Shown here in pieces: positions 13,014-61,940 of a stretch of DNA of 64,000 bases; within the stretch, counting starts at the first letter, position 1; each line of letters starts with the position of its first letter. Source of the stretch: a virus. The DNA is taken from the IMG/VR virus record IMGVR_UViG_3300030106_001122, positions 1 through 64,000 of that record; one strand, 5' to 3'. A program made the translations under genes and the position numbers. Under the pieces are notes generated by a model. The model did not search any database, was not told the origin of the DNA, and saw only the letters and a program-made list of their open reading frames with translations.

Positions 13014-13043
13014 AAAGGGGATAGCTTAATAGTTATCCCCTTT
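13014..13043. terminator. Bidirectional intrinsic terminator between convergent blocks
   Basis: AAAGGGGATA (13014-13023) pairs with TATCCCCTTT (13034-13043) around a 10-base loop. On the + strand it is followed by a run of T to 13049, ending the reductase operon; on the - strand the A-rich side gives a weaker T-rich tail for the late operon that ends at 13048. Placement between convergent genes supports use in both directions. Confidence 0.9.
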
Positions 13044-14825: not shown

Positions 14826-15284
14826 TTAAATATCAGCCACCTTATAAGCTGTGTCTCCATCACTGTCTTTGTAGGCTTCTAATATTTGTTTTCTATTTTT
14901 ACCGTTTGATTTTAATGATATGTGAATCCAAGCATAATCAAACTCGTTTATCATTTGATCAAACTCTATCTCTTCTTTGATAACCCAGTCGTATATTTCT
15001 TTATTACACATCTCGCCTTTTTTGAAAAACTGAATATCAACAGCTTGACCTTTACAATGCTGGCTCTTGCTCGAACCACCAATGGCTCTATTAAGTGCCG
15101 GGGAACGGTAACCACTACTAATCCTAATAGGACCAAGAGCGTTACGCATAGGCTGTATAAGATCTCTAATAAGGATTTGCATATTATTAAGGTGTTCTTT
15201 ATCCGGCGCATTTTTTATACCTAATCGTTTAGCTGTATTACTTTTTGTTATCTCTGATAACGTAAAATTCTTACTTAGTCTCAT
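14826..15284 (-). CDS. Endolysin: peptidase M15-type D,D-carboxypeptidase/endopeptidase
   Basis: A 152-residue zinc peptidase that would cut peptidoglycan peptides at lysis. Visible: LSEITKSNTAKRLGI (substrate-side helix), SGYRSPALN at 57-65, SKSQHCKGQAVDI with zinc ligands His76 and Asp83, and WIHIS with His121. This is the M15A/PF08291 layout. No signal peptide, so release would need a holin; a 3TM-type holin candidate is at 62443 and small membrane proteins are at 18347 and 22564. Its start overlaps the upstream stop by one base. Confidence 0.9.
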   Translation of the reverse strand: MRLSKNFTLSEITKSNTAKRLGIKNAPDKEHLNNMQILIRDLIQPMRNALGPIRISSGYRSPALNRAIGGSSKSQHCKGQAVDIQFFKKGEMCNKEIYDWVIKEEIEFDQMINEFDYAWIHISLKSNGKNRKQILEAYKDSDGDTAYKVADI

Positions 15285-15936: not shown

Positions 15937-17448
15937 TTATATTTTTGCTATAGTTAATTTACCTCCGTATACTTCTTCACCAGATGCTTGTGCCAACTCT
16001 ATTAATATATAATTAGTAGCGTCAGAGTTAACATCAGTAATATTTATTTGTGTACCAATATTACCAGTACCTTTACTTGTCACGGTCTTACTGTTAATAT
16101 CAGCTTCATAAACAGTAACAGCAGATGTTGCACTACCGTAAATGTCTACATGAGTAGCTTTAAAACCTACAGGTATATCTACATAAGCATAAAGCTTTGC
16201 TGTACTATGAGATTCTAACCATCTATCACTACTTGTATCATCTATCATTGCTGGTCTACCAACATCATCCGGCATAAAATCACTTGGTAATATTTTTACA
16301 TACGTTATACCAGGTAAAATATTACCAGTTACGTCTAAATCTCCACCAACATTTACATCATTATTAAACTGTGAAGTTCCAGCGGCAACGTAAAGAGCAT
16401 AAGGATTAGTAATGGTTTGATTTGTACTTGCTACTGGTTCTCCTTTTATATAAACTGTATAAGCATTTGTGGTTGTAACACTTGAGTTTGTAGCCATCAG
16501 TCTAGGGTTTTCAACCATTACATGAGCGAAAGAAACAGCTGTTCCCGAAGCAGACGTACTTCCATCTGTTATATCCATAGCGTCAATGTGTAATGCAACA
16601 CCGTCGCTGCCAGCTGTTACAGTGTTATTACTGTTTAGTGTCATTCTTTTTCCAAAACTTGTTTCTCCAGAAAAAGTTTTTTGTCCAGTAAATGTTTGAA
16701 CACCAGTAAGGTGTGCAGTATCGGAATCTAAATAAGCGCTATCTATAACACTACCTTGCCAAGTACCACTACTGATTGTACCTACTGTAGTTAAATTAGA
16801 ACAAGTTGTTATTGCCGCTTGTGTACCACTTGTTACCGTAGCTGATGTACCTGAAGCATTACCTGTTACGTTACCCGTTATAGCTCCTGTAACGTCTAAG
16901 TTGTTTGGTATTACAACATCACCATCAGTATCTATTTTTAAACTAGTCTGATTATTTTGACCAATACAAACGTTATGATTACCTGAGCTGTTGATAAAAA
17001 CATCTCCGTCAGCGGTTCCAATAATACCACCGTTAGTGGCATTTGAAACACCCACCAATAAAGTGTTATTGTCGTTAACCATAGCTAGTTCAGACATGCT
17101 ATCAGTATTAATACCAATAGTTAATCTTGGTGGATCATACTTTAAAGACTGCTCAGCGTTTATAGCATCAGCACCGGTGGCAGTTAAAACCCTATTGTCA
17201 ACACCGTTAGTCATAAAATCAGAGACATCTACAGACAAAGAAACATCACCACTATCACCGCCACCATCTAAACCGGTACCCGCAGTAACACTAGTAATGT
17301 CACCCGTAGAAACGTCTTGTTTGTATAGCTTACCATCAGAATCTATACCTACAACATGATCTTGCGCTGACTCAGTTACGTTTTCTAAATATACATCATT
17401 ACGAAACCTAGATATAAAATCCCATATATGTTGCCCTATCCATTTCAA
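15937..17448 (-). CDS. Tail fibre-like protein
   Basis: A 503-residue protein. The first 20 residues (MKWIGQHIWDFISRFRNDVY) form a conserved opening seen in fibre-like proteins of many marine phages. It is followed by LENVTESAQDHVVGIDSDG, Gly/Ser/Thr-rich repeats (AGTGLDGGGDSGDVSLSVD), a VTGNASGTSATVTSGTQAAI stretch typical of trimeric fibres, and a C-terminal beta domain. It overlaps the next gene by four bases. No C-terminal chaperone domain or enzymatic motif is visible. Adhesion role is inferred from composition and context. Confidence 0.75.
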   Translation of the reverse strand: MKWIGQHIWDFISRFRNDVYLENVTESAQDHVVGIDSDGKLYKQDVSTGDITSVTAGTGLDGGGDSGDVSLSVDVSDFMTNGVDNRVLTATGADAINAEQSLKYDPPRLTIGINTDSMSELAMVNDNNTLLVGVSNATNGGIIGTADGDVFINSSGNHNVCIGQNNQTSLKIDTDGDVVIPNNLDVTGAITGNVTGNASGTSATVTSGTQAAITTCSNLTTVGTISSGTWQGSVIDSAYLDSDTAHLTGVQTFTGQKTFSGETSFGKRMTLNSNNTVTAGSDGVALHIDAMDITDGSTSASGTAVSFAHVMVENPRLMATNSSVTTTNAYTVYIKGEPVASTNQTITNPYALYVAAGTSQFNNDVNVGGDLDVTGNILPGITYVKILPSDFMPDDVGRPAMIDDTSSDRWLESHSTAKLYAYVDIPVGFKATHVDIYGSATSAVTVYEADINSKTVTSKGTGNIGTQINITDVNSDATNYILIELAQASGEEVYGGKLTIAKI

Positions 17449-17690
17449 TATTTGTAAGTGTTTATAGGCCTTTCTATTGTATCAACGAAAACCTCTCTTT
17501 CTCTTATACCATCATCTGCCATCATACGCATTCTCCAACCTAAAGTTGGTTGGTAGAAAAACGAATTACTAATACGTCGCCAAGACAAATCATAATACTT
17601 ATATTTAACAGTGTCCACTATGTGACTTGTTTGTGCCGCGGCAATAGCGCTTAGCATAAATAATGCTATAGTAATTATTTTCTTTTTCAT
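17445..17690 (-). CDS. Small exported protein (signal peptide, Q-rule)
   Basis: An 81-residue protein with a clear signal peptide (KKKIITIALFMLSAIAAA) and predicted cleavage before Gln20 (AAA|Q). The mature part of about 60 residues is rich in Arg and aromatic residues (YYDLSWRRISNSFFYQPTLG, RMRMMADDGIRERE); no domain recognised. Predicted periplasmic or surface. It is the downstream end of a run of exported proteins. Confidence 0.7.
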   Translation of the reverse strand: MKKKIITIALFMLSAIAAAQTSHIVDTVKYKYYDLSWRRISNSFFYQPTLGWRMRMMADDGIREREVFVDTIERPINTYKY

Positions 17691-17703: not shown

Positions 17704-18042
17704 TTAAAATGCTTCCATTGTAATTTCATCTATAGAGTCTTGCACTTCTTTTCTTGTAGCCTCCATAGTCATCATTATATTCGCTTGAAACCTTTTAGCC
17801 TCTTCGTTGTTATTAAAAACAACTAGCGTGGGAACTACCACTATTTTGTATTCACTTGACCATCTTGAGTCCGCGGCTATATCCACTCTTTCAACCTCAC
17901 AATCCGTTAACTTAGATAACCATTGTACTTCGTTGGCTTTATTAAAGCTAGCATTAAACTCTACAACAACTAAACCTTCAGGAAAGTCTTGAGCAAAGCA
18001 CGTAGTGGTTAGTATTGACAGTAGTAAAATTAATTTCTTCAT
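17704..18042 (-). CDS. Exported thioredoxin-fold protein lacking CxxC
   Basis: A 112-residue protein with signal peptide (KKLILLLSILTTTCFA|Q18). The mature part follows thioredoxin order: VVVEFNASFNKANEVQW where WAxWCGPC would stand, then CEVERVDIAADSRWSSEY, then VVVPTLVVFNNNEEAKRF with the cis-Pro motif VPT. The redox CxxC is replaced by NASFNKAN, so it cannot act as a normal oxidoreductase and probably binds a protein or lipid in the periplasm. It overlaps the next gene by four bases. Confidence 0.72.
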   Translation of the reverse strand: MKKLILLLSILTTTCFAQDFPEGLVVVEFNASFNKANEVQWLSKLTDCEVERVDIAADSRWSSEYKIVVVPTLVVFNNNEEAKRFQANIMMTMEATRKEVQDSIDEITMEAF

Positions 18043-18341
18043 AATGTTATTCTAATTGTTACAACACCAAGACTAGCACCGACTACATCAGCAGCTATAT
18101 CGTTAATATCTGGGTGACCGTGTTTTATATCGTGAATCTCTTTAGCTACACCTATTAAAACTGAAACACCAAATCCGTATAGCAAAGATTTTTTCTTATC
18201 ATTTGTTTTATCGTAAACTAAAGCCGCAACACTAGAGCTTATAACATAACAACCACCAGCGTGTAGTAATTTATCTTGCTGCACGACCTGAGCACTTACT
18301 ATATTTGTTATCATAAAAAATATAATGAGTGCTTTTATCAT
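18039..18341 (-). CDS. Exported membrane protein, YfiM/DUF2279-like
   Basis: A 100-residue protein with signal peptide (IKALIIFFMITNIVSA|Q18), then QDKLLHAGGCYVISSSVAAL, GFGVSVLIGVAKEIHDIKHG and DINDIAADVVGASLGVV. The DKxxHaxxxY, KExxD and DxxaDxxGa motifs match the YfiM/DUF2279 group of small periplasmic/inner-membrane proteins of unknown role. One or two hydrophobic segments remain after cleavage. Predicted envelope location; role in lysis or exclusion is conjecture. Confidence 0.68.
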   Translation of the reverse strand: MIKALIIFFMITNIVSAQVVQQDKLLHAGGCYVISSSVAALVYDKTNDKKKSLLYGFGVSVLIGVAKEIHDIKHGHPDINDIAADVVGASLGVVTIRITL

Positions 18342-18346
18342 AGTTG

Positions 18347-18631
18347 CTACTTTAGTTTATCAATTTTCTCTTCTACTCTAATCATTTGATCCTTAATCTC
18401 TTTAACGTCTTCTTGAGTTGACATAATTGTCTGCCTTATTAACTGATCTTTCATGTCATACTCCATACGGGTTATTTCCGGATCGGGAGGTAAAGGTAGT
18501 TCTTTTGCTTCTGTTATATCTGATTGTAATGTAAACCACATACCTACCAGCGTAAATATTAAAACTGCTATGCCTGCTAAAGTTTTTATACTTAGCTGCA
18601 ATGTTGTATCTTCGTTTAATTCTTTTGCCAT
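18347..18631 (-). CDS. Single-pass membrane protein with coiled coil
   Basis: A 94-residue protein: short polar N-terminus, one membrane helix (IKTLAGIAVLIFTLVGMWFT), a Pro-rich joint (ELPLPPDPEITRMEYD) and a C-terminal helix of heptads (TMSTQEDVKEIKDQMIRVEE). The layout is that of a membrane-anchored coiled coil and fits an inner-membrane spanin-like or holin-assisting protein, though no lipoprotein partner is certain. It lies between exported proteins in the envelope cassette. Confidence 0.65.
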   Translation of the reverse strand: MAKELNEDTTLQLSIKTLAGIAVLIFTLVGMWFTLQSDITEAKELPLPPDPEITRMEYDMKDQLIRQTIMSTQEDVKEIKDQMIRVEEKIDKLK

Positions 18632-18633
18632 GA

Positions 18634-19716
18634 TTAAAATATTACGTAGTTAAGACCAACGCTAAAGTTATGCCAGTCTCTATTCCAATACTTATTGTAT
18701 CTACCTTCTATAAATGTTCCTAAACTTTTATTAAATCTATATCCGAATATAAGACCAATAGAGTAGTCGATCCACTGGCCGTTATTAAACTTATAATAAG
18801 AGTATATGTTGTTAGACTTGATGTGGTAAGGCATTAAGTTGCCCCAGCTATGAAACCAAAAATCTTTTGTAAAGTGGTAATAGTCAAACCCTAACACGGT
18901 AGAATACTCTACAATACTAGACAAAGCGTTACGTTGATTTTGAACGTAATCGTTTATTACCTCAGGTATTATAACCTCTTCCCACACAGCTTGATTATCT
19001 GCTACCAGTGTACCGTCAGGCGCATAGTATAAACCATTAAGTGTAACGTTATAACCTTCTTGTAAAGCTAGATAAGTGTAATGTAATGTTCCATTGTCTA
19101 AAACCCAGTCAGCTAGAGGGTCAAACCCGTATGGCTCAGACAGTCTCTGAACAGCTCCAATATTAAAAGAGAGCTTACCATCATTAATTTGTTTTCTGTA
19201 TCTCTGGGACGCCTCAAAATACTTTATATCAGCAAAACCATCTTGTAGGTACTCTACTTTTGCAACCCAGCTATCTGCAACATACCTTACAAAATGATGT
19301 TGGTTTGTATAGTTAACGCCTAACCGCCTCACAAAGTCAGCTTCAAATAAATATTCAAAGCCATCTACCCGGCCTAATGTTGCGGCGTCTGAGTATGAAT
19401 TTTCAGTACCGTTATAAAATGTTAATGCTCTATTTTCATAACCAAATCTTTTGATCTTTCTAATACCTATAGATACTGTGTAGTCAAAAGGTGTTTGAAT
19501 TATATCTTCCTGTAACTGACCAGAGGTTATAGACCAAACTTGATTATCAGACAATGAAGTCCCGCCGTTAACAGCTGCGTAAAAAGTTGAGTATTTAAGT
19601 ATTCTGCCTTGAGCGTTACACCCTTGAGCAGACATCATAAGAATAAAACTAAATACTATTACTAATCCTACCGCGCTTAAAAGTTCGTATAATAACGAGT
19701 TGTTTTTATTTGTCAT
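18634..19716 (-). CDS. Outer-membrane beta-barrel-like protein
   Basis: A 360-residue protein with an N-terminal hydrophobic signal (residues 8-30) and likely cleavage at CNA|Q36. The mature part alternates polar and aromatic residues in strand-sized units (FEYLFEADFVRRLGVNY, HHFVRYVADSWVAKVEYLQ, LGFDYYHFTKDFWFHSWG, DYSIGLIFGYRF) and ends with strand NFSVGLNYVIF, whose terminal Phe is the outer-membrane assembly signal. An AQGC stretch could be read as a lipobox instead. It overlaps the T9SS protein gene by four bases. A phage-made barrel could block receptors or help envelope rupture. No specific family recognised. Confidence 0.7.
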   Translation of the reverse strand: MTNKNNSLLYELLSAVGLVIVFSFILMMSAQGCNAQGRILKYSTFYAAVNGGTSLSDNQVWSITSGQLQEDIIQTPFDYTVSIGIRKIKRFGYENRALTFYNGTENSYSDAATLGRVDGFEYLFEADFVRRLGVNYTNQHHFVRYVADSWVAKVEYLQDGFADIKYFEASQRYRKQINDGKLSFNIGAVQRLSEPYGFDPLADWVLDNGTLHYTYLALQEGYNVTLNGLYYAPDGTLVADNQAVWEEVIIPEVINDYVQNQRNALSSIVEYSTVLGFDYYHFTKDFWFHSWGNLMPYHIKSNNIYSYYKFNNGQWIDYSIGLIFGYRFNKSLGTFIEGRYNKYWNRDWHNFSVGLNYVIF

Positions 19717-21962
19717 TGCTTAATAACCTGTCTTGTTACTGTATTATTATTACACGTTATAGAAAAGTTGTACACCCCAGATGGTAGGTTAGAAACGTTG
19801 AGCTGATTCAAACCTTTTATGGTGTACCTCTTTTTAACATGCACAACTAGTTTACCACTAGCATCATATACTTTTATTTCTACTTTGTTTTTAGTAAGTA
19901 TATTTAAAACATCTTTTGCTGGTACTGGGTATATAGCTACGTCGTTTGATCTCATTAAGTCCCTAACATCCATGTCGTTATCTTCATAACATTTCCAATA
20001 AAGCTCTTGACATTTCTGATCCCACTCGTTATTACAACAGTATGGATCAACCATTATAACCCAAGCATAACAAGAATCGTTCAACCAGTATGGATCGCCA
20101 GGTTCACCAATACAACCAGCATCGTATAGACATCCACCACTTTCTGTATTTGCAAACACGTCATAGTTGTACGCTGTCGGATCCATACAACCCTCTAGTA
20201 TCTCTACACAAGAGTTATCTTCTGTGTTAGCAAATTCGTTGTAATTAAACGCTAAAGAGTCTAGACATCCATACACTACTGGTATACAACTAAAATCTTC
20301 TGTGTTAGCTTCTTCATTATAATTAAAAGCTTCAGGGTCGGTGCAACCTAACACTGTAATAAAACAAGTACCATTATCTACATTAGCCTGTGGATCGTAG
20401 TTATCAGCAATAGGATCCATACAACCAAAGTATATACAGCTACCATCTTCTACGTTAGCAGCAAAGTTGTAGTTCCAAGCCATGTTATCCATACAGCCAA
20501 CTACAACCGCAACGCATCCACCATCATCAACGTTAGCTAGTGAATCGTAATTAAAAGCTAATTCGTTTGTACAACCATACACTGCTTCAACACAGCTACC
20601 GTCATCTGTGTTAGCTTCAGGTATATAATTTATAGCAGACTCTTCTAGACAACCATATACTTTAGGTATACAGTAATCACCACAGAAAGGTAGTGAGTGA
20701 TACACGTGCCAGAAAGGTGGCGCGTAAGGTTTTAAAGCACCGGCACCGTTTTCTGCAAATGGATATACACCGCCTTGCAGCGTAACATCACCAGCAGAAT
20801 TAATAAGCTTAAATGAGTTGTGCATAGTTTGAAAAGCAACCTCAGCCGGTGGGGTTTGTGGACTAGCTATCTCAAAGTAGTAAACTTTAACTGGTTTATC
20901 TGTTTCTAATATTATATTAAACTGTTGAGAATAAGGACCAGGTCCCATAGTATATGTTCCAAGAATACTATCTTCTTGTACTACACCTATATAACAATCA
21001 CCCCAACCGTCGCCACCATCATCTTCAATTACTAAAGTGTAATTACATACAGGCACTATTTCATTTAACGTAGCTAGTGAATCGTAATTAAAAGCATTAG
21101 GGTTTATACAGCCAAGTGTATGTAAAGTTTCACAACTACCATCATCAAGGTTAGCTTGTGGGTTGAACTCTATATACGTGTTGTTAGTACAACCTTCAAC
21201 TACTGGTATGTCACACTGGTTCAACCATATAGGACCTGAGTAAGCAGCGTTACCAAAATTAGCTTCAGGTAAAGCCCATAACGTATCTAAACTACCGCAA
21301 GGTTCGGCATCGCCTAATATAATTATGTTACCATCAGTACCGCCATTATATAAAGACCCAGCAACACCGTCACCGTACGTATCATTAAGTATTATTTCAA
21401 CCCCAGTTTCTGGTATACATATATCGTATATTATAGTTTGATTAGCCTGCTCGTAATCATACTCACCAGCTACAACGTTATCCACTGGTTGACCATTAGA
21501 TAAATCTGTTATAATCCAACCTGTCTCACCTGGAAACTGATCAAGCGTTAGCTGTAAAATAATTTTGGCCTCTCCGTCAGAGCAACTAACTCCAACACAG
21601 CTGCCATCATCTGCTTCTGCCCAGGGATTATAGTTCGGTGCTTCAGGATCGATGCAACCGAATATTGGATACTCACAACTACCGTCGTTAACAGTAGCCT
21701 CTGGTACGTAGTTTAAGGCTAACATATCTGTACAACCAAGTACAGTGTCTATGGGTGCTTCACAATCACCTTCATCCCAGTTAAACTCTTCACAGTCAAA
21801 GTAAACGGGTATACCATTGTAAGTGTAAGCACCGTCATCACACCAACCATCACCTAACCAACCTGAAACAGCTGTAACATCTGTACCCAAGCAATCATAC
21901 AAAGTGTCTTGAGCATTTAAGCTACCAGATAAAATAATTAATAGTAAAAGTATTTTTCTCAT
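19713..21962 (-). CDS. Secreted Cys-rich repeat protein with T9SS type A sorting domain
   Basis: A 749-residue exported protein. Signal peptide 1-17 ending LNA|Q18; an LNR-like Cys module (GDGWCDDG, FDCEEFNWDEGDC) at about 25-70; about eleven repeats of the form GCxDxxAxNYNxxAxxDDGSC between about 73 and 635, interrupted by a beta domain near 130-400; a CCNNEWDQKC module near 650; and from about 674 a C-terminal domain (DVAIYPVPAKDVLNI, IKVYDASGKLVV, LPSGVYNFSI, TRQVIKQ) with the layout of the T9SS type A sorting signal. It should be exported by Sec and then moved to the cell surface by the host's T9SS. It lies in a late operon, next to a barrel protein. Confidence 0.85.
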   Translation of the reverse strand: MRKILLLLIILSGSLNAQDTLYDCLGTDVTAVSGWLGDGWCDDGAYTYNGIPVYFDCEEFNWDEGDCEAPIDTVLGCTDMLALNYVPEATVNDGSCEYPIFGCIDPEAPNYNPWAEADDGSCVGVSCSDGEAKIILQLTLDQFPGETGWIITDLSNGQPVDNVVAGEYDYEQANQTIIYDICIPETGVEIILNDTYGDGVAGSLYNGGTDGNIIILGDAEPCGSLDTLWALPEANFGNAAYSGPIWLNQCDIPVVEGCTNNTYIEFNPQANLDDGSCETLHTLGCINPNAFNYDSLATLNEIVPVCNYTLVIEDDGGDGWGDCYIGVVQEDSILGTYTMGPGPYSQQFNIILETDKPVKVYYFEIASPQTPPAEVAFQTMHNSFKLINSAGDVTLQGGVYPFAENGAGALKPYAPPFWHVYHSLPFCGDYCIPKVYGCLEESAINYIPEANTDDGSCVEAVYGCTNELAFNYDSLANVDDGGCVAVVVGCMDNMAWNYNFAANVEDGSCIYFGCMDPIADNYDPQANVDNGTCFITVLGCTDPEAFNYNEEANTEDFSCIPVVYGCLDSLAFNYNEFANTEDNSCVEILEGCMDPTAYNYDVFANTESGGCLYDAGCIGEPGDPYWLNDSCYAWVIMVDPYCCNNEWDQKCQELYWKCYEDNDMDVRDLMRSNDVAIYPVPAKDVLNILTKNKVEIKVYDASGKLVVHVKKRYTIKGLNQLNVSNLPSGVYNFSITCNNNTVTRQVIKQ

Positions 21963-21973
21963 ATATATTTAAT

Positions 21974-22333
21974 TTAACATTTCCATCTTGCTCTTGCCTT
22001 CTTACCTCTCTCACCAGTCCAACCTCTAGATCTAGCACAAAAGCTTTTTCTACGTTTAGCATCTTTACTACCTGGTTTAACCTTACCTGTAACAGGTGCG
22101 GATAGAGTACTACCAGGGTTTTCCCTTTTATACGCAGCTCTACCTTTAGCTGTCATACCAGCACCTTCGTCAGCGTGTAAAAAATGCCTGTCTTTACCTC
22201 GTGTAGTTTTTCTTAGTTTATTGAACGGACTTTCTTTAGTACGATCATCACCAGGGTCACCACCTTGTGTAAACGTTCTACGCCTACCACAGCTAGTAAC
22301 TTTGAACGGGTTGTTTGATTGCTTGTATGCCAT
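21974..22333 (-). CDS. Small basic phage protein, DUF6321-like
   Basis: A 119-residue very basic protein with AGMTAKGRAAYKRENPGS, then PVTGKVKPGSKDAKRRKSFC and AR-rich tail ending WKC. The GMTAKGRaxYxR...PVTGKVKPGSxxxKRRKSFCAR core is a widespread family (DUF6321-type) in marine phages, with Cys and basic residues that may bind nucleic acid or metal. The N-terminus has an unusual CGRRRTFTQGGDPGDDR extension. Function unknown. Confidence 0.75.
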   Translation of the reverse strand: MAYKQSNNPFKVTSCGRRRTFTQGGDPGDDRTKESPFNKLRKTTRGKDRHFLHADEGAGMTAKGRAAYKRENPGSTLSAPVTGKVKPGSKDAKRRKSFCARSRGWTGERGKKARARWKC

Positions 22334-22776: not shown

Positions 22777-25700
22777 TTATTTATGAGTTGCTAAACCTTT
22801 TTTATAATTCTTTGTTTTCTCTGCAGCAGTTAAAACTTTATTATAAATCTTAACATCATCTATAATACCATCAAACCTGTCCGCATCTAAAGCTTCATTA
22901 GCACCGATTATAAGTGGTGCGGCTCCATTAAAGTTTCCAGACCAAGTACCTGTACTATAAGTCTCAACGCTACCATCATCCTTATAAAATAATATTTGAT
23001 CGTTTTGAGTGTCTATCACAACGGTAATCATCGCCCAAGTATTTAAAGATAGAGTACTAAAATTATTCCCTGAATCAAGACTTGCGTTACCTGAGTCCTC
23101 TGCGTAAACCCTAACTGAAGCATTGTCCGAGCCAACGCTAATCATCCACTCTGCAGCATCAGTTTTACCTTTAGTTATAATTCTATCATTTGCAGTTAAA
23201 CTAAATGGTTTAACCCAAGCCTGAATAGTAAAACCTGTAGTACCAAAATCAAAGTCAGAGCTATCATCTATTTTTAAGTAACCATCGCCGTTCAAGTTTA
23301 AACCACCCTCTCTAATCTTATTCATTGGTAAACCTAGAGAATCTTTATCAAAGTAAGGAACTTTTTGAAGTTGTATTGTAGTTGGAGAACCGTCAACAGT
23401 ACCGTTGTTAGAGTTAGTTGATAAATCAGTCCAAGTATCTACACCGTTATTCCTCCAGTAAGCAACAACATCAGAGTAAGCACTATGATCTCTAACATCT
23501 AACGCTGTACCTGAATTAAATATTTCTTGTACTTCTGATTCTGTAAGCTTCTTATTAAATATAGAAACTTCATCTACAAAGCCTTCATAATTGTTGCCGC
23601 CCCCTGCTGCACCACCTATAAAAAGATCACTCGAAGCATCACTAGTGGCAGAGCCAGTAGGAGCTTCAGTCTCACCATCAGGAATAAATTTAGTAACAGT
23701 TTGCTTTATACCATTAACATATATATCAGGGTTATGCCCATTAGAATTAGAATTATATGCTACAGCAACGTGTGTTAGCTTACTGAAAGTTATTGCCGGT
23801 GTTTTCCAGTTACCGTTATTACCACTAAAAGACTTTAAAAATCTAATTACAGGGTTGCCACTGTCTGAAGCGACTCTAATTCTAACATTACCTTTAACTA
23901 TAATATCAGGATTACTAGCTTCACCAAAATTGTTAGGTGAAATCCAACAACTCCAAGTTCCACCATCAGTAAATATGTTGTCTATAGTAGTGTCACTTCC
24001 GCAATTGACATTATCGTCTGTTCCATCAAATATAGCTTTTTTAGAATAAGAAGACATAGCATATTGTGGAATATATGGTTGAGCGGTTTTCCACTCAGTA
24101 GTATTATTACTTCCATCTACGTAAGCGAAAGAATCGTTTAGAGTTATTTCTTTAAAAGAAACTTTGTCAACATAGAATTCAGCTACACTATTAACAGACC
24201 TAAGCCATACATACCCCGCAGGATCTGCAGCACCTGCCGTACTCTCACTCATTACTACAGCTTTAATAGTTTCCCAACTACCAGTGTTTGTTGTTGTAAT
24301 AAAATTATCAGAAATATCACCGTTCGGAGTATCGAATCTAAAATCTCCTGATTCAACGAATACATCTACTTCTACACTATACAGAGTATCACGTTTAAAA
24401 CCATCACCATTTATCGCATAAGTTCCACGATCAAAATCCTGTCTTATTCTATCATTGTTATCAGTTCCAAGTGTGTTTATTTTAGCAACATTTTCTCTAC
24501 CTTTGAATGTACCTACTTCTATTGTAGCTCCAATATCTTCTGGTTCCCAACCTGTAGTTCCATTAGAAAAATCATTGTTGTAAATTAGTTCTTTACTCAA
24601 AACTGGCGCAGCGTCATAAAGTCTTATTCCAGCTCCTTCATTTAATCTAAGTAAGGTCTTACAGTCTGTTGGTTGAATACCTGTACTTTGATATTCTTTT
24701 ATAGTTAGATTATCTAAGTAACCCGCTGCATTATTATTACTACCGTCCTCTTTTATACCAAAAAACCTAGTCTTATCGCTGTGGGTAAATATCTGTGTAT
24801 AAGTAGTAAAATTTGTATCAGATGATGTTATATTAGCTATAGCCGTTTGAGCGCTACCAGTATTTAGCGAAGAAGTAGTATTGAATTGTAATATAAAATC
24901 ATCACCAGACCCAGAATGTCTAGAGTCTATCTGAAGTTTATAGAGCTTGCCAGCAGTTAATATAGAATCCAAATCCATGTAAGTTCTATCACCATTGCCT
25001 GTAGATTGAAATTTTATGGAGTGATTGCTATTGCTAGTAACAGATGAATCTAATGTTATTTTTGAATGTGTAAAACCAGTAGTACCATCTGTGGAAGTTG
25101 GTATATTACTACTTTCATTAGTAACGCTAGTAGGGTTTTCAATAGTATTTAGTTCATCACCAATAACCATAGCAACTCTATCTTTATCATCAAATACATC
25201 TTTATCTGGATTGTCCCAGTCATATGTTACATCTGAAGCCGTCCAACAAGCATCGTAAACTTGGAAATCTGAAACCATGCCATCGTACTCAAAGTTAGAT
25301 TCAGCTCCATGTCTACCTATTGTAAGATTAGCTGTAAGCGTTGTGGGGTTAAACGTTGATACTCTAGTGTATTGAAGCTCTCCATCTAAATATACGTAAG
25401 CAGTAAGACCGTCTGCTACTATTACAGCTCTATACCATCTATCTGCCACGATAGTGGGTGCTGCACCTGTTGTAGGTGTGCTATTTTGATCTCCATAATT
25501 AAAATAAAGTTTATTGCCAGATGTCCACAAATAAAATCTATTGTTAGCAGGAGAAGTTTGACCACACCCAAAAATCATTCTTGAGCCTAACGTTGCGGCG
25601 TTAAACCACAAGGCTACAGTACACTTAAAGTTTGAGTCTACCGTTGTCCCTGCTGCTGGATAATCTGTTGTTACATAATCAGGATCATCTTCAGCTCCAT

Positions 25701-26718
25701 CAAAGTCTAAAGCAGTACCAGAATATAGTACTGCATTATTTTTATTAGAGGAGTAGTCACGAACAGAGTTTGTTATTTCTTTTAATGAAACCTTAGAAAC
25801 TGTAGCGGTCACACTTGTTGCATCTTCAGTTCTAGCTATAGAAAAAGTATTATTACTAGTTGACATCATCTCAAAAGTGTTAACACCCACGCTTAAAGTA
25901 TTATTATCGTTACCAGTATGTACTTTAAGTTTGTTATCAACACTAAGAGAATCTACTACAATTTCAACTTTATATTTTTTATTTAAAGTAATGATACCAC
26001 CAATGCTTATACCAGTGTTCTGATTATCAGTGCTATTGTAATCTATAAGTACAGAACCATCCTTAATTGTAACTTCACTATTATTACCACTACCATTAGA
26101 TATTGCCCAACTATCATTAGGGTTAGTTCGCTTAACAGATACATCGTCTATTTCTATATATTGACTATTTTCAACTTGGTGCCAAGCTAGTACTCCAAAA
26201 GAAATATCTACACTATCTGATGCTGCTGTGTAATAAAAAATAAATTCTTGAAAGTCCGTTGTTAAAGATTGGTTTTCAGCTATATTATTATCACCGCTGG
26301 CGTCATTTTTACTTCTTACATGGAACGCCATACCATTTTCGCTAGCTCTAACTCTAGCCTTAATCTGATATGTTTTACCAGACTCCCAAGTAATAGCTTG
26401 CTCAACGAACTTTTTTCTCCAGTCGGTGTTGGTTCCAGTAGTGGCATTAGCTAGTCTTAAGTAACCTCCTTGATTAGTTACTGTAGCTAAACCAGGATTA
26501 CTTGTACTATCTTGATCATAATTAAACCACCCAGTAATACCGTTACTAAAGTTACCATTGCTTACTAGCTCTGGCCCAGTTAAAAAACTACCATTAGCTA
26601 TCTCCTCCTCCCCTAATGGAGCTTGAGTAACATCAGCTTTGTACCAAGCTTGTAAACCGTCTTTGACGATCCTCCTAATTTTACCGCTTTTTCCAGCGCC
26701 AGAACCTATACCTAACAT
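22777..26718 (-). CDS. Large LamG-type tail fibre / receptor-binding protein
   Basis: A 1313-residue protein. It opens MLGIGSGAGKSGKIRRIVKD, a short virion-anchor-like segment. Two CBM-like units (ELVSNGNFSNGITGWFNYD; ELIYNNDFSNGTTGWEPED) are each followed by SGKTYQIKARV-type strands. At least three LamG/ConA-like lectin domains are seen: near 395-520 (KCTVALWFNAATLG, RWYRAVIVADG), 940-1100 (GTWSCWISPNN, EGFVDEVSIFNKKL) and 1165-1310 (FTIQAWVKPFSLT, DRFDGIIDDVKIYNK). Such lectin folds bind surface glycans, so this is the strongest receptor-binding candidate. No signal peptide, consistent with virion assembly in the cytoplasm. Confidence 0.85.
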   Translation of the reverse strand: MLGIGSGAGKSGKIRRIVKDGLQAWYKADVTQAPLGEEEIANGSFLTGPELVSNGNFSNGITGWFNYDQDSTSNPGLATVTNQGGYLRLANATTGTNTDWRKKFVEQAITWESGKTYQIKARVRASENGMAFHVRSKNDASGDNNIAENQSLTTDFQEFIFYYTAASDSVDISFGVLAWHQVENSQYIEIDDVSVKRTNPNDSWAISNGSGNNSEVTIKDGSVLIDYNSTDNQNTGISIGGIITLNKKYKVEIVVDSLSVDNKLKVHTGNDNNTLSVGVNTFEMMSTSNNTFSIARTEDATSVTATVSKVSLKEITNSVRDYSSNKNNAVLYSGTALDFDGAEDDPDYVTTDYPAAGTTVDSNFKCTVALWFNAATLGSRMIFGCGQTSPANNRFYLWTSGNKLYFNYGDQNSTPTTGAAPTIVADRWYRAVIVADGLTAYVYLDGELQYTRVSTFNPTTLTANLTIGRHGAESNFEYDGMVSDFQVYDACWTASDVTYDWDNPDKDVFDDKDRVAMVIGDELNTIENPTSVTNESSNIPTSTDGTTGFTHSKITLDSSVTSNSNHSIKFQSTGNGDRTYMDLDSILTAGKLYKLQIDSRHSGSGDDFILQFNTTSSLNTGSAQTAIANITSSDTNFTTYTQIFTHSDKTRFFGIKEDGSNNNAAGYLDNLTIKEYQSTGIQPTDCKTLLRLNEGAGIRLYDAAPVLSKELIYNNDFSNGTTGWEPEDIGATIEVGTFKGRENVAKINTLGTDNNDRIRQDFDRGTYAINGDGFKRDTLYSVEVDVFVESGDFRFDTPNGDISDNFITTTNTGSWETIKAVVMSESTAGAADPAGYVWLRSVNSVAEFYVDKVSFKEITLNDSFAYVDGSNNTTEWKTAQPYIPQYAMSSYSKKAIFDGTDDNVNCGSDTTIDNIFTDGGTWSCWISPNNFGEASNPDIIVKGNVRIRVASDSGNPVIRFLKSFSGNNGNWKTPAITFSKLTHVAVAYNSNSNGHNPDIYVNGIKQTVTKFIPDGETEAPTGSATSDASSDLFIGGAAGGGNNYEGFVDEVSIFNKKLTESEVQEIFNSGTALDVRDHSAYSDVVAYWRNNGVDTWTDLSTNSNNGTVDGSPTTIQLQKVPYFDKDSLGLPMNKIREGGLNLNGDGYLKIDDSSDFDFGTTGFTIQAWVKPFSLTANDRIITKGKTDAAEWMISVGSDNASVRVYAEDSGNASLDSGNNFSTLSLNTWAMITVVIDTQNDQILFYKDDGSVETYSTGTWSGNFNGAAPLIIGANEALDADRFDGIIDDVKIYNKVLTAAEKTKNYKKGLATHK

Positions 26719-42397: not shown

Positions 42398-45300
42398 TTA
42401 ATTTCCGTCATCGGGACTGTGTGTTCCCATCTCTGTTATTGTTATATCCCATGAAGTATACTCGCAAGATCCATCATCAACATTTGCATCAGGATTATAA
42501 TTGTCTGCGTCTGGATCCGTACATCCCTCAATGTCAAATACGCATCTGCAAACAGGGTCGTAATTATTCCAGAAATTTATTGGATCATCATTATATACGG
42601 CGAAAACGTCTGATGGCATGTTCGCGAAGTTGATAATGTTACTAGGTGTAGCATCTTGTCCAGCTTCTACAAACCAAAAATATTGGTTTAATTGATCCGT
42701 ATCTGAGCAACCAGTCGTGTTTGCGAGTGGATTAAAGTTAATAGCATCTATATCCATACAACCTGTAATTACTGGTATACAACAAGCATCTTCTACACCA
42801 ACAGCGCTTTGCCAGTTAGCTGGATGTATTTCTTCACAGAACTCTTGTGTGTCGGCTAACGGGTCGTAATTCCAAGCATCTGGATCCATACATCCCGAGT
42901 TGTAAACACACACGTTTGCAAATGGATTACCTTCACTAGCTTCTGAATTCCAATTAAGAGCTATAGGATCAGTACACCCATCAACATGAGGTATACATGT
43001 ACCATCATCTTCTTGAGCTAGTGGATCATAGTTTTGAGCTGTAGGATCCATACAGCCATAAGCAGTGTAAGTACAACAGTCAGCACAAGCAACAGTAGCA
43101 TTAACATCGTAGTTGTTAGCCAAAGAATCCATGCAACCAACTTTTACTTCTTCTTGAAACTCGCAAGAACCATCATCAACGTTAGCATTTGGATTATAAT
43201 TTATTGCATTTACATCCATGCATCCCTCAATTACTTCAACACAAGAACCATCATCTATGGTAGCAGCACTATTAAAGTTAAATGCGTTAGGATCTGTACA
43301 ACCGCTTATATCGTAATTACAGTCGTTTGAACTAACTGTAGCCTCTGGGTTATAGTTTGCCGCTAAAGGATCCATACATCCAACAACTTGAGGTATACTT
43401 ATTGAACTTACCATACCTATACCCTGCACTGTAAACTCAGAAGTATCTAAATTTTCTAAAGTAGTAGGTATGCCATTTATATTACTAAACCACTTACCTT
43501 CTTTGTTTATAAATTCTAAAACAGAAGACTCTTGAAGATCGGTATTAAAACTCTCTACAAACCAACCGTCTTTACTGTGCCAGTTGTAGTACTCATTATC
43601 TCCAACGTAACCAAGACTATTACCACTAGCGTCTAACGCTAAATGGCCAGTGTAACCCCACTCAGTTATTTTAGCTTGATCACCCTCGTAATTCATAGCT
43701 GTAAAACCTTTTATAGCCCCAGGGTTTTCATTAAATAATATATCTATAGTAGAGTTGTATTGCTCACCATAAAAATTATTTGCTGGTACAACTAATCCTT
43801 CAAACCCACTGCTATTAATTGTTACATCTTTATTATGATGTGACCAAACGCTACCGTTAGCGGCGGTTATATATTCGGCGTTAATAGATAAACCAGTGTC
43901 TGGCACGAATGATTTAAAACTTGGCCAACCTTTAGTTTTTTCGTTAAAAGATACAGTGGTGCTTGTTAAACCTTCATTTGATCTTAAATACGGGTCACGG
44001 TATTTAATAGTTAAATTATATTCGCCTTTTACCTCATCAAAAGTACCAATCAACTGATCAGCGTGTTTTAAGTTATCTCTAAAGTAACTTGACATACCAA
44101 CGTCGGATATTGGTGTTAAACCATCTTGTGATAATCTAAGAACTTTACCTCGCTGCTTGTCTGTAAAATACATTCTATAAGCGTCAAAAGCTAAAGACTC
44201 TGGATTTGAAGATATACCATAATCACCAGCAAATGCCTTAGCATTACCCAACACAACATTAGAAGCGGTAACATTAGAACTACCGTCTGCATTGTATAAA
44301 GCGTCTTTGTTGGCTAGTATTTGTAATACTTTATCTTCACAAAATGTAACTAAATTAGTGTCTCTAGTCTTTAAAGCTTGTATAGACCCATATAGAGGAT
44401 TTAAGTCTTTAGTTATAGCTTCAGCCATATTGAACTCGTTAAGCTTATTAACACCACTTGTAGAGTTGTATATTCCTGACCATATTAAACCACCACTTCT
44501 TCTTTCTCTTCTATAATCTTCTAACCCAGTAGAAACTTTACACCCATTATCTATTTGAGGCGCGTTGAAATCATCTCGTATCCTATCAGACTCTAATCCA
44601 TTCCCAAATGAATAACAGTTAAACCAAGGTAAAGTAGTTTTGTTATTGTAAACATTTTGATTTAATCTATAATAACCAGTCACCTCTCTAAATGTTATAT
44701 CAAAACTACCACTCTCTAAAACCTGTTGTTCACTGTAACCACAGTTATGCCAATATATAGTCGTGTAAGTACTACCAATGTCTATACCTGGAGTTGGACC
44801 GGCTGCAGTCTTAGTGAAAGTTCCTTTGAGTATGCTTAAATCTGAAGATGTTATTTCCCAAATCTTACCATCATCACTATTAAAATCGTCAGGTAAAGAT
44901 GCTGTAAGTAGCTCTATAGTACTTTGACCATCAAAATTAGCCACAGTACATTGCAATGTGTATCTTGATGACTTTTCATAAGAAGCTGGGTTAAACGGGT
45001 ATTCAACTTCCTGCTCTTCCACCATGGCACCAATAGTGCCAAAGCCCGTATCAACATCAACATAAACATTTTCTATAGCAGTGTAAGCTTCTTGATTGAT
45101 GTATGATGTTATTGGTTTGTAGTAGTCTATAACTTTAGCTCTAGTCACGGAGCCATCCAATCTGTTAAAACTTAACTCATCTCCAATAGCTATAGGATAA
45201 CGAGTAACATTATCCACGTCATCTGCTTGACCTAACCCTACAACATCTCTAATAGCGTATCTAACTGTTGGGGTAGCTGTAACAGCATCATCAACATAGC

Positions 45301-48300
45301 AATAATCTAAATTTACCGGTGTCATTTCAGCGTCTAATCTTTCAGACGTAACTGGAGTATTGCTAGGCGCAAATGATTGTATATTAGAATTGTTTAACTT
45401 TAAAGGTAAAGCACTAGTTGCTTCATAGTATAAATCTAATCCTACGTCTTCTTTAGGTTCAGTTTCCCATATAGCATTACCAACACTAGTTTGTAATACA
45501 TCAGTATTGTCGTAACTAGATTGTACAATTTCTATATAAGTCATAGTAGTACCGTCATGTCTTAAGGCTGATCTAGGGTCCCAATAATCTAAATCTAAAC
45601 CTTTAGTGTAATCGTCATACCTAGAGAAGTATAGTTTAAATGTACCACGCTTACACACGTTACTCCAGTTAGCACCTTCATAACATTCATGGCAATATGA
45701 GTTACCACCCGAGTGTTGTCCACCATAATTAGAGCTTGCCAACCCAAAACCACTTTCTCCAATATCAGTACCTCTAACTACATATATAGTAGGTTCACCT
45801 GTGTACTGTCCATCACCATTACCTACTCCACCGCCGGGGTCAGATTTGAATCTAAACAGAGTACCTTCTTGTTGTAAGGCATCACGAAAAGCTAAAGTTT
45901 CCTCATCCCACGTGTCATCTCTCATTGCTGAAAAAGATATATGATTGACACCATCATCTACACTAAAAGGAGCAGCGTTACCGATAGCATTCATAGGACC
46001 ACTAATCTCTCCACAGGGTTGATCGTTTGTTTTATTCCAGTTTGACCCATCTATAAACCACTTTGAAGAACCTTGTGGATTGTTATTCCAATACCATTTC
46101 CAAAACCCTTTAGTATTAGAAGCGCCTTCACCGCCATCGTCTCGAGCAAGCATATACCCATTCTGTATATTATGAGCATTGTTAGCGTTTGACCAGTCAC
46201 CAAGCGCGTTACCTTCTCCCCAATTGTTTAATGAGGTGGCACATGTACTATAGTTGATGTCTGCAATAGTAGCGTCACCTTGAGAAGGTGGGGCGTAGTC
46301 ACCTTGGTATTTAGCCCAACTAGCTGGGTTTTTACCGTCAGATCTTGTACTATCTACATAACCAATTTTATATGAAGATACTGTTTTATATGACGAGGTT
46401 GCCACGTTAGTGCCTAAGATAGTGTTAGTTAACGTAGCATCTTTAAATACTTTTACGAAGAATCTACCCTCAAACTCTGGTCTGTTTTCTTCTACTGAAT
46501 CTCTAACCTCTACGCTAACAGTTAAACCTGTACTAGTACCGAAGTTAATATCACCCGACATATCAGCTGTTGGACCAAAAGACCCAACAACAGTTATAGA
46601 TCTGTTTGCATCGTGCAGTCTAGCTATTCTAACCCATTTAGAAAATCTTGTAACACCAGCTAGGGTACCAACTATTCTAGCCCATCCAACACCTTCAAAT
46701 TTATAATCTTTAAAGGTATTATCATAAGCATCCCATGATTCACATTGAACACCTAAACTATTACTTAGATCAACACCAGAATCGCTGGACAGCGCTTCAA
46801 GACCTATAATTCTGTTAGTACTCTTTATAAATCTAGGAGCTTCGTTTGATATTGCTAATATCTTATATCTAGCGTCTTCCTCTACAGGATCCTCACTACC
46901 GTGTTTATTTTTTAAAGTTAGATATGTTTCTATATCTACTTTGTTTCTATCAGAAGATTGAAAAGATAACCATATATTACCATCTTCAGCTGGATACCAT
47001 CTATCCATAACTAAATTGTAATACTCATTGCTGGTTTCTTTTATATAATACTTATAATACTCGATCCAGTTATCAGGATTACCATCCCAATTTAACTCAG
47101 CACTAATCTTATTTACTTTAAATGAAACATTTTTAGGTACAAAAATACTATCAGGAAATGTTTGGTCTGCATAATCATTAGAAACTTCTTCCAGCGCTTG
47201 AGTATAAGCACCACCACCATTACCAATAACCTTACCACCAATACCCATTACTGGTGTTTCTCTACCATACTTATCACCAAATACAACTCCAACTTTGTAT
47301 CTCCTAAGAGATTTTATAGATTTTATAGGGCTTAAATCTGTTGGGTGATCAGTAGATTCAATAGTAGAATGTACAAATACCTTTGATAAAGTATCATAGT
47401 TCTGCTCGTAGTTTGCAAAAACAACTCTATTGCCAGTAACCTCTTGAGCTTTAGCTGTTATTGGTACGTTATCCCAAGCTCTCAATGTTTGAGAAGATGG
47501 GAGAGTTTTATGTATCATTTCAGTAGTTATATCTACAACACCTGAATTACCACTACCCTCAGCGTTGTCATTCCACTCTTCGTCATAACCTCTTCTTATA
47601 GACTTTACTACATAAACATTTGGAGATACAGTATCTTTAAATAAAATGTCAACAGCAATAACATCATCTGGTCTTTGAAAATCTTCTACAATAAAGTCTG
47701 TTATTTGTAAACTTCTCATAGTGTTTACCATACCTAAATTGTAACCCTTTGTAGGTAAGTAATCAAACTTGCTGGGTATAAAAGCTAACTCAGACCACGG
47801 CGAAAAAGAAGAATATTCTCCATCTTGATACTTGTATCTATAACCAAATCTACCAAACGTAGTTTCAAATATAGATTTCTTTTGAACAATTTCTATATCC
47901 CACTCTAAATGACTACTATTTATTTCATCATCTATTTTAATTATTTGCACTCTGTGAACTCCAGAGGAAAGAACTTGCGTTACCTTAGCCGTTACAACTA
48001 AAGGTTCAGTAGTGCAAGTAAATTGTAGTGTTTGTCCTATACTAAACGAATCTCCATTTGCTATACAAGAGGTGTTTAATGAATCTCCATTCTCATTAAA
48101 AGTATCAAGTTTAACGTAGTCATCTACACCTGGTAAACTTTCTCCGTCCTCTAAAACCCAATTAAAAACACAGGAAGAAGAATAAGACGCTCCTTTTCCA
48201 CCTTCAAATTGAGACATTATCAATTTAGGCGCAGTCCTAGGGGCTCTTCTAATAAGAGTTATATGTTCCTCTTTATAAGCGCTATCTGTAGATTTGTCTA

Positions 48301-49228
48301 TATATTCTAGTTGTATTAAACTATTTGTTGTTGTTGTTGGGTTGTCTATAAATAAATCTGAGTGGCGAGTAAAAAATGCTGACTCTTTTAATCTATCTAA
48401 ATTTATTTTTCTAGGCTCATTTATATTATCAGTCCATAATAATAAATTATTTACAATATTTATACCTGATATATAATGAGAGTGTGGTTGTGAAAACCTT
48501 AAAACCTTTTCAGATGTAAATACAAAATAAGCAGCGCTCTCTAAATTTCCTACAACATATCTATCAAACCAAATCGTATTAGTGTTAGAATCAAACTCTC
48601 TAACAATAACACTTTCAGACATTCCATTTAAAGTATTATAAGCGCTCATGTCTGTACCTATAATTGACATGCTAGCAGCGTTTAATACGTTTATACTCAT
48701 GCCAGGTCTAACATAGCCCGATAAACTACTAGACACAACTATATGATCATAACTAGCATACTGGCTACCTATGTCGTTTAAAGGTATATCACCCACTACT
48801 TCACTAGCTGGTATTTCAACTCTAAATATATCAGTAAACACTGGAAACAACTTCTTACTATCACTGTTATATTTTATAATCATGTCCTTATAGACCCTAA
48901 CACTTGGTTCGGCTGTTTGATCTATACTTGTAACCGTAGGTGACGCTACAAAAAAGTAAGAGTTGTTAGTTTTTTCATCTGAAATACATCCCACAAAATA
49001 ACTTTTTTCACCATCACTGTTTACAGTGGGCTCTATAGGATTTCTAGCTTTGTCATACGATAATCTTTCTAAAGTACCGTATAGGTTTTGAGCAGCACCT
49101 ATATCGTTTCCATCAGAAGTTCTAACCTCTATATTTAAAGCGTCTCTATACTCACCTTGAGGAACTAGTCTTTCGTCTAGATCCTTATTCATTTTACCGG
49201 CTTGAAACGTGTGTTTAATCTCTGGCAT
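42398..49228 (-). CDS. 2276-residue tail protein with C-terminal Cys-rich DDGSC repeats
   Basis: The N-terminus (HTFQAGKMNKDLDERLVPQG, then EYRDALNIEVRTSDGNDIG) is the signature of a widespread tail stabilisation/nozzle-type protein in Bacteroidota phages. The body is beta-rich with recurring adhesion-like and strand motifs. From about residue 1945, nine repeats of the form GCxDPxAxNYNPxAxxDDGSC follow to the C-terminus, the same family as in the secreted T9SS protein at 19713. Cys-rich modules on a cytoplasmically assembled virion protein are unusual. The tail location is inferred from the N-terminus and from neck genes just upstream; receptor or Ca2+ binding by the repeats is conjecture. 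Confidence 0.8.
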   Translation of the reverse strand: MPEIKHTFQAGKMNKDLDERLVPQGEYRDALNIEVRTSDGNDIGAAQNLYGTLERLSYDKARNPIEPTVNSDGEKSYFVGCISDEKTNNSYFFVASPTVTSIDQTAEPSVRVYKDMIIKYNSDSKKLFPVFTDIFRVEIPASEVVGDIPLNDIGSQYASYDHIVVSSSLSGYVRPGMSINVLNAASMSIIGTDMSAYNTLNGMSESVIVREFDSNTNTIWFDRYVVGNLESAAYFVFTSEKVLRFSQPHSHYISGINIVNNLLLWTDNINEPRKINLDRLKESAFFTRHSDLFIDNPTTTTNSLIQLEYIDKSTDSAYKEEHITLIRRAPRTAPKLIMSQFEGGKGASYSSSCVFNWVLEDGESLPGVDDYVKLDTFNENGDSLNTSCIANGDSFSIGQTLQFTCTTEPLVVTAKVTQVLSSGVHRVQIIKIDDEINSSHLEWDIEIVQKKSIFETTFGRFGYRYKYQDGEYSSFSPWSELAFIPSKFDYLPTKGYNLGMVNTMRSLQITDFIVEDFQRPDDVIAVDILFKDTVSPNVYVVKSIRRGYDEEWNDNAEGSGNSGVVDITTEMIHKTLPSSQTLRAWDNVPITAKAQEVTGNRVVFANYEQNYDTLSKVFVHSTIESTDHPTDLSPIKSIKSLRRYKVGVVFGDKYGRETPVMGIGGKVIGNGGGAYTQALEEVSNDYADQTFPDSIFVPKNVSFKVNKISAELNWDGNPDNWIEYYKYYIKETSNEYYNLVMDRWYPAEDGNIWLSFQSSDRNKVDIETYLTLKNKHGSEDPVEEDARYKILAISNEAPRFIKSTNRIIGLEALSSDSGVDLSNSLGVQCESWDAYDNTFKDYKFEGVGWARIVGTLAGVTRFSKWVRIARLHDANRSITVVGSFGPTADMSGDINFGTSTGLTVSVEVRDSVEENRPEFEGRFFVKVFKDATLTNTILGTNVATSSYKTVSSYKIGYVDSTRSDGKNPASWAKYQGDYAPPSQGDATIADINYSTCATSLNNWGEGNALGDWSNANNAHNIQNGYMLARDDGGEGASNTKGFWKWYWNNNPQGSSKWFIDGSNWNKTNDQPCGEISGPMNAIGNAAPFSVDDGVNHISFSAMRDDTWDEETLAFRDALQQEGTLFRFKSDPGGGVGNGDGQYTGEPTIYVVRGTDIGESGFGLASSNYGGQHSGGNSYCHECYEGANWSNVCKRGTFKLYFSRYDDYTKGLDLDYWDPRSALRHDGTTMTYIEIVQSSYDNTDVLQTSVGNAIWETEPKEDVGLDLYYEATSALPLKLNNSNIQSFAPSNTPVTSERLDAEMTPVNLDYCYVDDAVTATPTVRYAIRDVVGLGQADDVDNVTRYPIAIGDELSFNRLDGSVTRAKVIDYYKPITSYINQEAYTAIENVYVDVDTGFGTIGAMVEEQEVEYPFNPASYEKSSRYTLQCTVANFDGQSTIELLTASLPDDFNSDDGKIWEITSSDLSILKGTFTKTAAGPTPGIDIGSTYTTIYWHNCGYSEQQVLESGSFDITFREVTGYYRLNQNVYNNKTTLPWFNCYSFGNGLESDRIRDDFNAPQIDNGCKVSTGLEDYRRERRSGGLIWSGIYNSTSGVNKLNEFNMAEAITKDLNPLYGSIQALKTRDTNLVTFCEDKVLQILANKDALYNADGSSNVTASNVVLGNAKAFAGDYGISSNPESLAFDAYRMYFTDKQRGKVLRLSQDGLTPISDVGMSSYFRDNLKHADQLIGTFDEVKGEYNLTIKYRDPYLRSNEGLTSTTVSFNEKTKGWPSFKSFVPDTGLSINAEYITAANGSVWSHHNKDVTINSSGFEGLVVPANNFYGEQYNSTIDILFNENPGAIKGFTAMNYEGDQAKITEWGYTGHLALDASGNSLGYVGDNEYYNWHSKDGWFVESFNTDLQESSVLEFINKEGKWFSNINGIPTTLENLDTSEFTVQGIGMVSSISIPQVVGCMDPLAANYNPEATVSSNDCNYDISGCTDPNAFNFNSAATIDDGSCVEVIEGCMDVNAINYNPNANVDDGSCEFQEEVKVGCMDSLANNYDVNATVACADCCTYTAYGCMDPTAQNYDPLAQEDDGTCIPHVDGCTDPIALNWNSEASEGNPFANVCVYNSGCMDPDAWNYDPLADTQEFCEEIHPANWQSAVGVEDACCIPVITGCMDIDAINFNPLANTTGCSDTDQLNQYFWFVEAGQDATPSNIINFANMPSDVFAVYNDDPINFWNNYDPVCRCVFDIEGCTDPDADNYNPDANVDDGSCEYTSWDITITEMGTHSPDDGN

Positions 49229-61130: not shown

Positions 61131-61411
61131 TACTTACTCCTTCCTTCAGCAAACCCTTGAAACTTGGGCTTACTTTCTTTTGGTTTATCTAAATCCTTTA
61201 ATATACGCTCTTCCTCTTCTATTCTTGACAATATTTCAAAAGCATCAAATATAGCTAGCTTTTTAGTTGCTGCTGCATTTTTTAATCTATCGGCAGATAT
61301 ATCATCATCAGAATCTACAATCGGCTCTTTAGCGACTTTAATTAACTCTTCTACTGCTCTCCGCCCAGCTTGGATTATACTCTTCTTCGTCTCCTTTGTA
61401 TTCATATTCAA
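61130..61411 (-). CDS. Putative terminase small subunit
   Basis: A 93-residue charged helical protein (SIIQAGRRAVEELIKVAKEP, then SADRLKNAAATKKLAIFDAF and EILSRIEEEERILKDL) directly upstream of the terminase large subunit. The ADRLKNAAATKKLAIFDAxE pattern is shared by proteins in this slot in many marine phages. DNA recognition is not visible as an HTH, so the call rests on position and that pattern. The start overlaps the upstream gene by 74 bases; a later ATG at 61405 is equally possible. Confidence 0.58.
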   Translation of the reverse strand: MNMNTKETKKSIIQAGRRAVEELIKVAKEPIVDSDDDISADRLKNAAATKKLAIFDAFEILSRIEEEERILKDLDKPKESKPKFQGFAEGRSK

Positions 61412-61940
61412 TTGTAATAAAATTATTCATAACTCTATATAACCTTTCTCCATCCACAACAAACTCAAACTCACTACTAGGTCTAAAACCTACTAACTGT
61501 GTAGGTAAAAAAGTACCGTCAGAGTATTTAACTATACCAACTAACGGTCTTTCTTTTAACGTAGAGTATTTATCTATATTTCTTAAAGGCTTAACAAAGG
61601 TATAACCACTTGTGCATTCCCACCTAGCATCTTTATACATAAATATTTGATCTGGCCCGGCAAGGTATTCATCTTCGTTTAAAAAACCTCTACTGTTTTT
61701 TTCTACACCTTTAACGTTATGCCAACGCCTAAATATGTTATGATGAACTATTATTTCTTGACCCTTCTGTAAGTTGTGTACGTTATCAATAGGAGTAGAG
61801 ACAACAACAGCTTTACGATTAATATATCCATGATTAAATATCTCAGTATTAACTATTAAACTTTTGCCATCAGCTACTTCTACAGAATTATTATATCTTC
61901 TACCTAAAGGTTTTATTACATAGTCATATACTGGTCTCAT
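61338..61940 (-). CDS. Possible GroES-like duplicated barrel protein
   Basis: A 200-residue protein with two similar halves: YDYVIKPLGRRYNNSVEVAD with KAVVVSTPIDNVHNLQKGQE (residues 5-65) and WECTSGYTFVKPLRNIDKYS with PLVGIVKYSDGTFLPTQLVG (residues 107-150). Both have the IKPL...KG.Vv.tp layout of co-chaperonin GroES-type barrels. NVKGVEKNSRGFLNEDEY and the residue order HHNIFRRWHN are a phage-specific insertion I have seen in similar proteins. A co-chaperonin role is a guess. It overlaps the next gene by 74 bases, unusual but both frames show protein-like content. Confidence 0.62.
   Translation of the reverse strand: MRPVYDYVIKPLGRRYNNSVEVADGKSLIVNTEIFNHGYINRKAVVVSTPIDNVHNLQKGQEIIVHHNIFRRWHNVKGVEKNSRGFLNEDEYLAGPDQIFMYKDARWECTSGYTFVKPLRNIDKYSTLKERPLVGIVKYSDGTFLPTQLVGFRPSSEFEFVVDGERLYRVMNNFITIEYEYKGDEEEYNPSWAESSRRVN

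Follow-up and report, generated by a model that had tools for sequence, protein, structure and literature searches.

Does a gene in the late operon of a marine bacteriophage really encode a protein tagged for export by its host's type 9 secretion system (T9SS), and if so, what would a phage gain from it? The gene lies at 19713-21962 on the minus strand of the window, the 64,000-nucleotide stretch analysed here, which makes up positions 1 to 64,000 of the 65,308-base IMG/VR virus record IMGVR_UViG_3300030106_001122. The original prediction, made from sequence alone, was that its 749-residue product carries a Sec signal peptide cleaved before Gln18 and, from residue about 674, a T9SS type A C-terminal sorting domain (CTD), that this large Cys-rich repeat protein sits in a late operon, and that such use of the host machine would be an unusual strategy serving surface masking against superinfection, altered adhesion of infected cells, or a debris/receptor decoy. 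We find that the observation is correct, with one small correction to where the CTD begins, whereas the interpretation is supported only in part.

The comparison of the C-terminus with the curated CTD profiles, proposed at the outset as a check, came out far above chance: residues 677-749 (19716-19934, minus) score 47 bits to TIGR04183 (E 1.8e-12, cut-off 23) and 49.1 bits to Pfam PF18962 (E 7e-13, cut-off 27), so that the profile starts at residue 677 rather than about 674 and runs to the very C-terminus. An AlphaFold2 model built from 64 relatives has seven strands at residues 675-748, with a local pLDDT of about 80-86, and the best PDB match in Foldseek is 8glk_D, the NucA substrate CTD bound to the Flavobacterium johnsoniae T9SS (TMt 0.82 over 77 columns, rmsd 1.6), followed by the mirolase CTD (8qb1), with the FspA (8glj) and RemA (8gl6) CTDs lower in the list; some large proteins also score, with meaningless whole-length alignments. 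The C-terminal lysine, Lys748, part of a motif described in PMC11285876, is conserved in at least 90% of relatives.

At the other end of the protein, the first 17 residues (21912-21962, minus) form a Sec signal peptide, MRKILLLLIILSGSLNA|QDT, with cleavage before Gln18 as predicted and in keeping with the Bacteroidetes Q-rule (PMC5837995). This was judged from the sequence and a home-made Sec/Q-rule scan rather than with SignalP; 72 of 87 relatives pass that scan against 6 of 951 other ORFs, and many of the misses are ORFs truncated at contig ends or with mis-called starts. Between the two signals lies a Cys-rich beta/repeat region, with 40 Cys in the whole protein and about 10 Cys repeats of the GCxDxxAxNYxxxAxxxDxxC type, a block of which occupies residues 431-611 (20130-20672, minus). 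This is followed by a Cys-rich pre-CTD domain at residues 612-676 (19935-20129, minus; YWLNDxCYAWVIxVDPYCCNNEWDxKC), the best-conserved part of the cargo.

The late-operon position is also confirmed, as contiguous minus-strand genes, mostly with gaps of a few bases, run from TerL (58902-61130) through a portal and structural genes on the same strand to a hairpin with a T tail at 13014-13043. This hairpin lies between the last late gene and a convergent adenosylcobalamin-type ribonucleotide reductase gene of the phage (11131-12996, plus), and is likely the end of both operons. A promoter scan was uninformative (40 found, 39 expected). Just upstream of the terminase is a GroES-like co-chaperonin (61338-61940, minus; phrog_13932), as in related flavobacterial phages. 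Directly upstream of the cargo gene is a basic DUF6321 protein (21974-22333, minus), a domain that also occurs inside larger phage proteins (PHROGs), and just upstream of the cassette described below is a 1313-aa, probably fibre-like protein with three LamG-like (Laminin_G_3) stretches (22777-26718, minus).

Is the cargo a maintained phage gene, or contamination with a chance CTD? The search for the same gene in related phages had likewise been named as a test, and it rules out the latter: a scan of IMG/VR with the cargo gave 46 loci, a scan with the neighbouring gene brought many more, and 83 of 87 distinct relatives on viral contigs match TIGR04183. Against close relatives dN/dS is 0.05-0.10 for the whole gene and, where computable, 0.055-0.15 for the CTD, indicating purifying selection. 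In the four exceptions (loci L034, L037, L039 and L045), and in a further cargo (L214), the CTD is replaced by a short tail of the type ITDxLGRx..YIYDDGxxxKxIIxK. This tail matches proteins in 30 of 79 genomes drawn from the order of a Flavobacteriales MAG, up to 44 per genome, it ends proteins of unrelated function in four host examples (L217-L220), and no Pfam or NCBIfam model matches it. It is possibly an uncatalogued sorting signal. Replacement of one C-terminal tag by another suggests that export is selected for, although the second tail is not a proven T9SS signal.

What the original prediction missed are the partner genes. The next gene, at 18634-19716 (minus), overlaps the cargo gene by ATGA and encodes a 360-aa protein predicted to be an outer-membrane barrel of 12 strands (pLDDT 73). 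Its family is well conserved (43 representatives, 52-82% identical to the first), usually ends in an aromatic residue (NYVIF, although some relatives end in L), and appears to be exported, with 75 of 96 barrels passing the Sec/Q-rule scan; the window's own barrel fails it, although it has a long hydrophobic N-terminal stretch followed by CNA|Q. Fold searches gave only generic porins in the PDB, NanC best (E 8e-5), and one viral protein without a name, A0A516LKJ4 (E 1e-22). The idea that the barrel is PorV, PorP or SprF was rejected, as no such family was found among the Pfam matches of 43 members at E 0.1.

The linkage between cargo and barrel is tight. Of 76 unique loci found with the barrel alone as query, 72 carry the cargo, and in the other four the barrel starts at or near a contig end. 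Of 115 pairs, 86 overlap by four bases, and 11 have the reverse order yet stay within about 3 kb of each other. A profile scan found at least 593 viral stretches encoding a relative; of 75 loci examined from it, 71 carry the cargo, although many contigs are shared with the first set.

Two further genes travel with the pair: gene T, a 94-aa single-TM protein with a charged C-terminal helix (18347-18631, minus), in 111 of 118 barrel loci, and gene X, a 112-aa exported thioredoxin-fold protein with a Q-rule signal peptide (17704-18042, minus), in 110 of 118. The thioredoxin matches of X are weak but consistent, and CxxC is lacking in all but one of 91 sequences, so we take it to be redox-inactive. 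An M15 endolysin directly follows X in many relatives, but in the window it lies further away, at 14826-15284 (minus). The window's run also holds two more exported small proteins, a DUF2279/VanZ-like protein of 100 aa (18039-18341, minus), present in a minority of relatives, and one of 81 aa (17445-17690, minus), rare in relatives. Near the cassette in one further locus, a 1294-aa frame (L202:2074-5955) ends in a sequence resembling a Hint/intein C-terminus (..NNTLVHNAQ..).

Of 35 virus records with the cassette, 13 share the window's terminase (50-92% identical), 6 match it only weakly, and 16 not at all, including contigs of 110-246 kb; the cassette therefore sits on several unrelated phage backbones. 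By contrast, the cultured-phage collection searched, of 50,697 records, holds no homologue of cargo, barrel, T or X, and six records with related terminases that were checked lack any CTD, so that published virion proteomes could not be used to ask whether the cargo is a virion component, an outcome that had been named as evidence against the prediction.

The host was not identified, but several observations point to the Flavobacteriales. All 87 records with a related TerL are Flavobacterium, Cellulophaga, Tenacibaculum or Maribacter phages or one unassigned phage, and 64 of the 79 genomes in the Flavobacteriales sample match the repeat/CTD part of the cargo, with repeats up to 57% identical, although weak matches there may be to the CTD only. 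Two Bacteroidota MAGs whose bins hold a cassette contig also hold SprA and many CTD proteins; as binning of phage contigs is unreliable this is supportive only, and it leaves undecided whether the host of this phage itself encodes a T9SS. A third MAG contig (L129), with a cassette fragment of cargo CTD plus barrel, is labelled as the archaeon Nitrosopelagicus and is almost surely a misbinned phage contig.

Phage-borne T9SS cargo is not categorically new. Cryophage (PMC7468147), a cryoconite phage, encodes three T9SS type A cargos in variable regions, an endoglucanase, a GH39 and a PA14-domain gene, and its authors proposed hijacking of the host T9SS and possibly superinfection exclusion; here, instead, one family, non-enzymatic as far as profiles show, is linked to a barrel across many marine phages. 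One crAss-BACON ORF near head genes also contains a T9SS sorting domain (PMC6949934), but with BACON repeats and no linked barrel that we saw described, and Porphyromonas gingivalis phages encode Q-rule proteins (PMC10367356). Compared with the T9SS type A cargo proteins of Bacteroidota, which have the same Sec signal peptide, seven-strand sorting domain and host-type Cys repeats, the present cargo differs in being encoded in a phage late operon and tied to a phage barrel. SprF/PorP barrels are encoded directly downstream of T9SS type B cargo genes such as SprB, an arrangement like that seen here, but our cargo is type A. Uncultured phage porins and cyanophage OMP-like barrels are likewise phage genes for outer-membrane barrels, yet of a different family, with only generic structural similarity apart from A0A516LKJ4. 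The calling of the strategy “unusual” thus needs qualifying, as it has published precedents and is widespread among uncultured marine phages. What is new is the conserved family, the linked barrel, the cassette and its spread, of which searches of the open literature found no description.

We believe that the cassette most likely serves late-expressed remodelling of the infected cell's surface. In this view, the host's Sec system exports the cargo, signal peptidase cleaves it at A|Q, and the host's T9SS recognises the CTD, carries the cargo across the outer membrane, and attaches or releases it. The co-translated barrel would insert in the same membrane as the cargo's partner or anchor, with the one-TM and thioredoxin-fold proteins assisting on the periplasmic side, and the exposed, acidic, Cys-rich repeat protein would cover or alter the surface, so that other phages, and the phage's own progeny near the time of lysis, adsorb poorly to the infected cell and its debris. 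The late-operon position, the two export signals of the cargo, their conservation and the linkage to the barrel are read directly from sequence; secretion itself, display or release at the surface, the physical partnership with the barrel and the anti-adsorption role are our inferences. Delivery by the host T9SS to the surface or medium is well supported by profile, fold, conservation, signal peptide and the tail replacement, although secretion was not assayed in wild-type or T9SS-mutant cells. The whole chain is tentative, with a probability of roughly 0.42, and we favour it because the product is exposed, non-enzymatic as far as profiles show, variable in length and repeat number, and paired with an outer-membrane protein. 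A functional analogue, not a homologue, is T5 Llp, encoded beside the receptor-binding protein gene, which excludes by acting on an outer-membrane receptor (PMC9586334). Llp and Cor are small periplasmic lipoproteins without T9SS or barrel partner, whereas the cargo is 749 aa long and its signal ends in AQ with no lipobox Cys at the cleavage site; whether it blocks adsorption was not measured. Exclusion genes elsewhere are, moreover, often early or prophage genes, and a partner role for the barrel rests on gene linkage alone.

The main rival, which we consider less likely, is a lysis aid, in which cargo, barrel, T and X together weaken or open the outer membrane after the M15 endolysin acts, as a Bacteroidota substitute for spanins. 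The late position fits this, as does the commonest gene order, cargo-barrel-T-X-endolysin, with median gaps of about 6-13 nt (42 of 75 loci in the second scan), and the genes are predicted to span inner membrane, periplasm, outer membrane and surface. However, in the window and in other relatives the endolysin lies elsewhere, lysis needs no protein tagged for export beyond the outer membrane, and the variable cargo length and repeat number suit binding better than lysis. A spanin pairs an inner-membrane protein with an outer-membrane lipoprotein; T has one TM and a charged helix, but X carries a Q-rule site rather than a lipobox, which does not settle the comparison either way.

Somewhat less likely again is an adhesin or matrix role, the cargo being displayed or shed to change attachment or aggregation of infected cells, or to hold released virions near particles. 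The repeats are of the kind found in long Flavobacteriales proteins, and about 9 related Cys repeats end a giant 2276-aa late protein of the same phage that lacks a signal peptide (42398-49228, minus). On the other hand, no adhesion domain is recognised, and the repeats in the giant proteins do not match their own phage's cargo best, so we see no sign that the two co-evolve. That cargo and barrel form a surface receptor or porin pair feeding the infected cell is improbable: the barrel search does return porins such as NanC, but no catalytic or solute-binding domain is recognised in the cargo, and the position is late rather than early. Least likely is a virion protein whose CTD is vestigial or moonlights in assembly, as the gene lies near structural genes but its signal peptide is conserved, and its CTD is under purifying selection and, when lost, replaced by another host-type tail. 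The suggested purposes of masking, adhesion and decoy are untested, and only the export part of the original interpretation is well supported.

In the papers found here, phage use of the T9SS has been noted only in passing. The cassette is conserved, testable and present on many marine phage contigs, with a closely linked phage barrel, and lends itself to experiments on exclusion, adsorption or lysis in Bacteroidota. The boldest reading compatible with our data, and a tentative one, is a mobile, multi-layer cassette of inner-membrane protein, periplasmic thioredoxin-fold protein, outer-membrane barrel and T9SS cargo that takes over the host's T9SS to redecorate the infected cell, a Bacteroidota-specific form of superinfection exclusion or surface takeover shared by many uncultured marine phages. 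The cassette predicts that infected marine Flavobacteriales carry a phage-made outer surface and, if true, it would define how phages of a dominant marine phylum act outside the cell.
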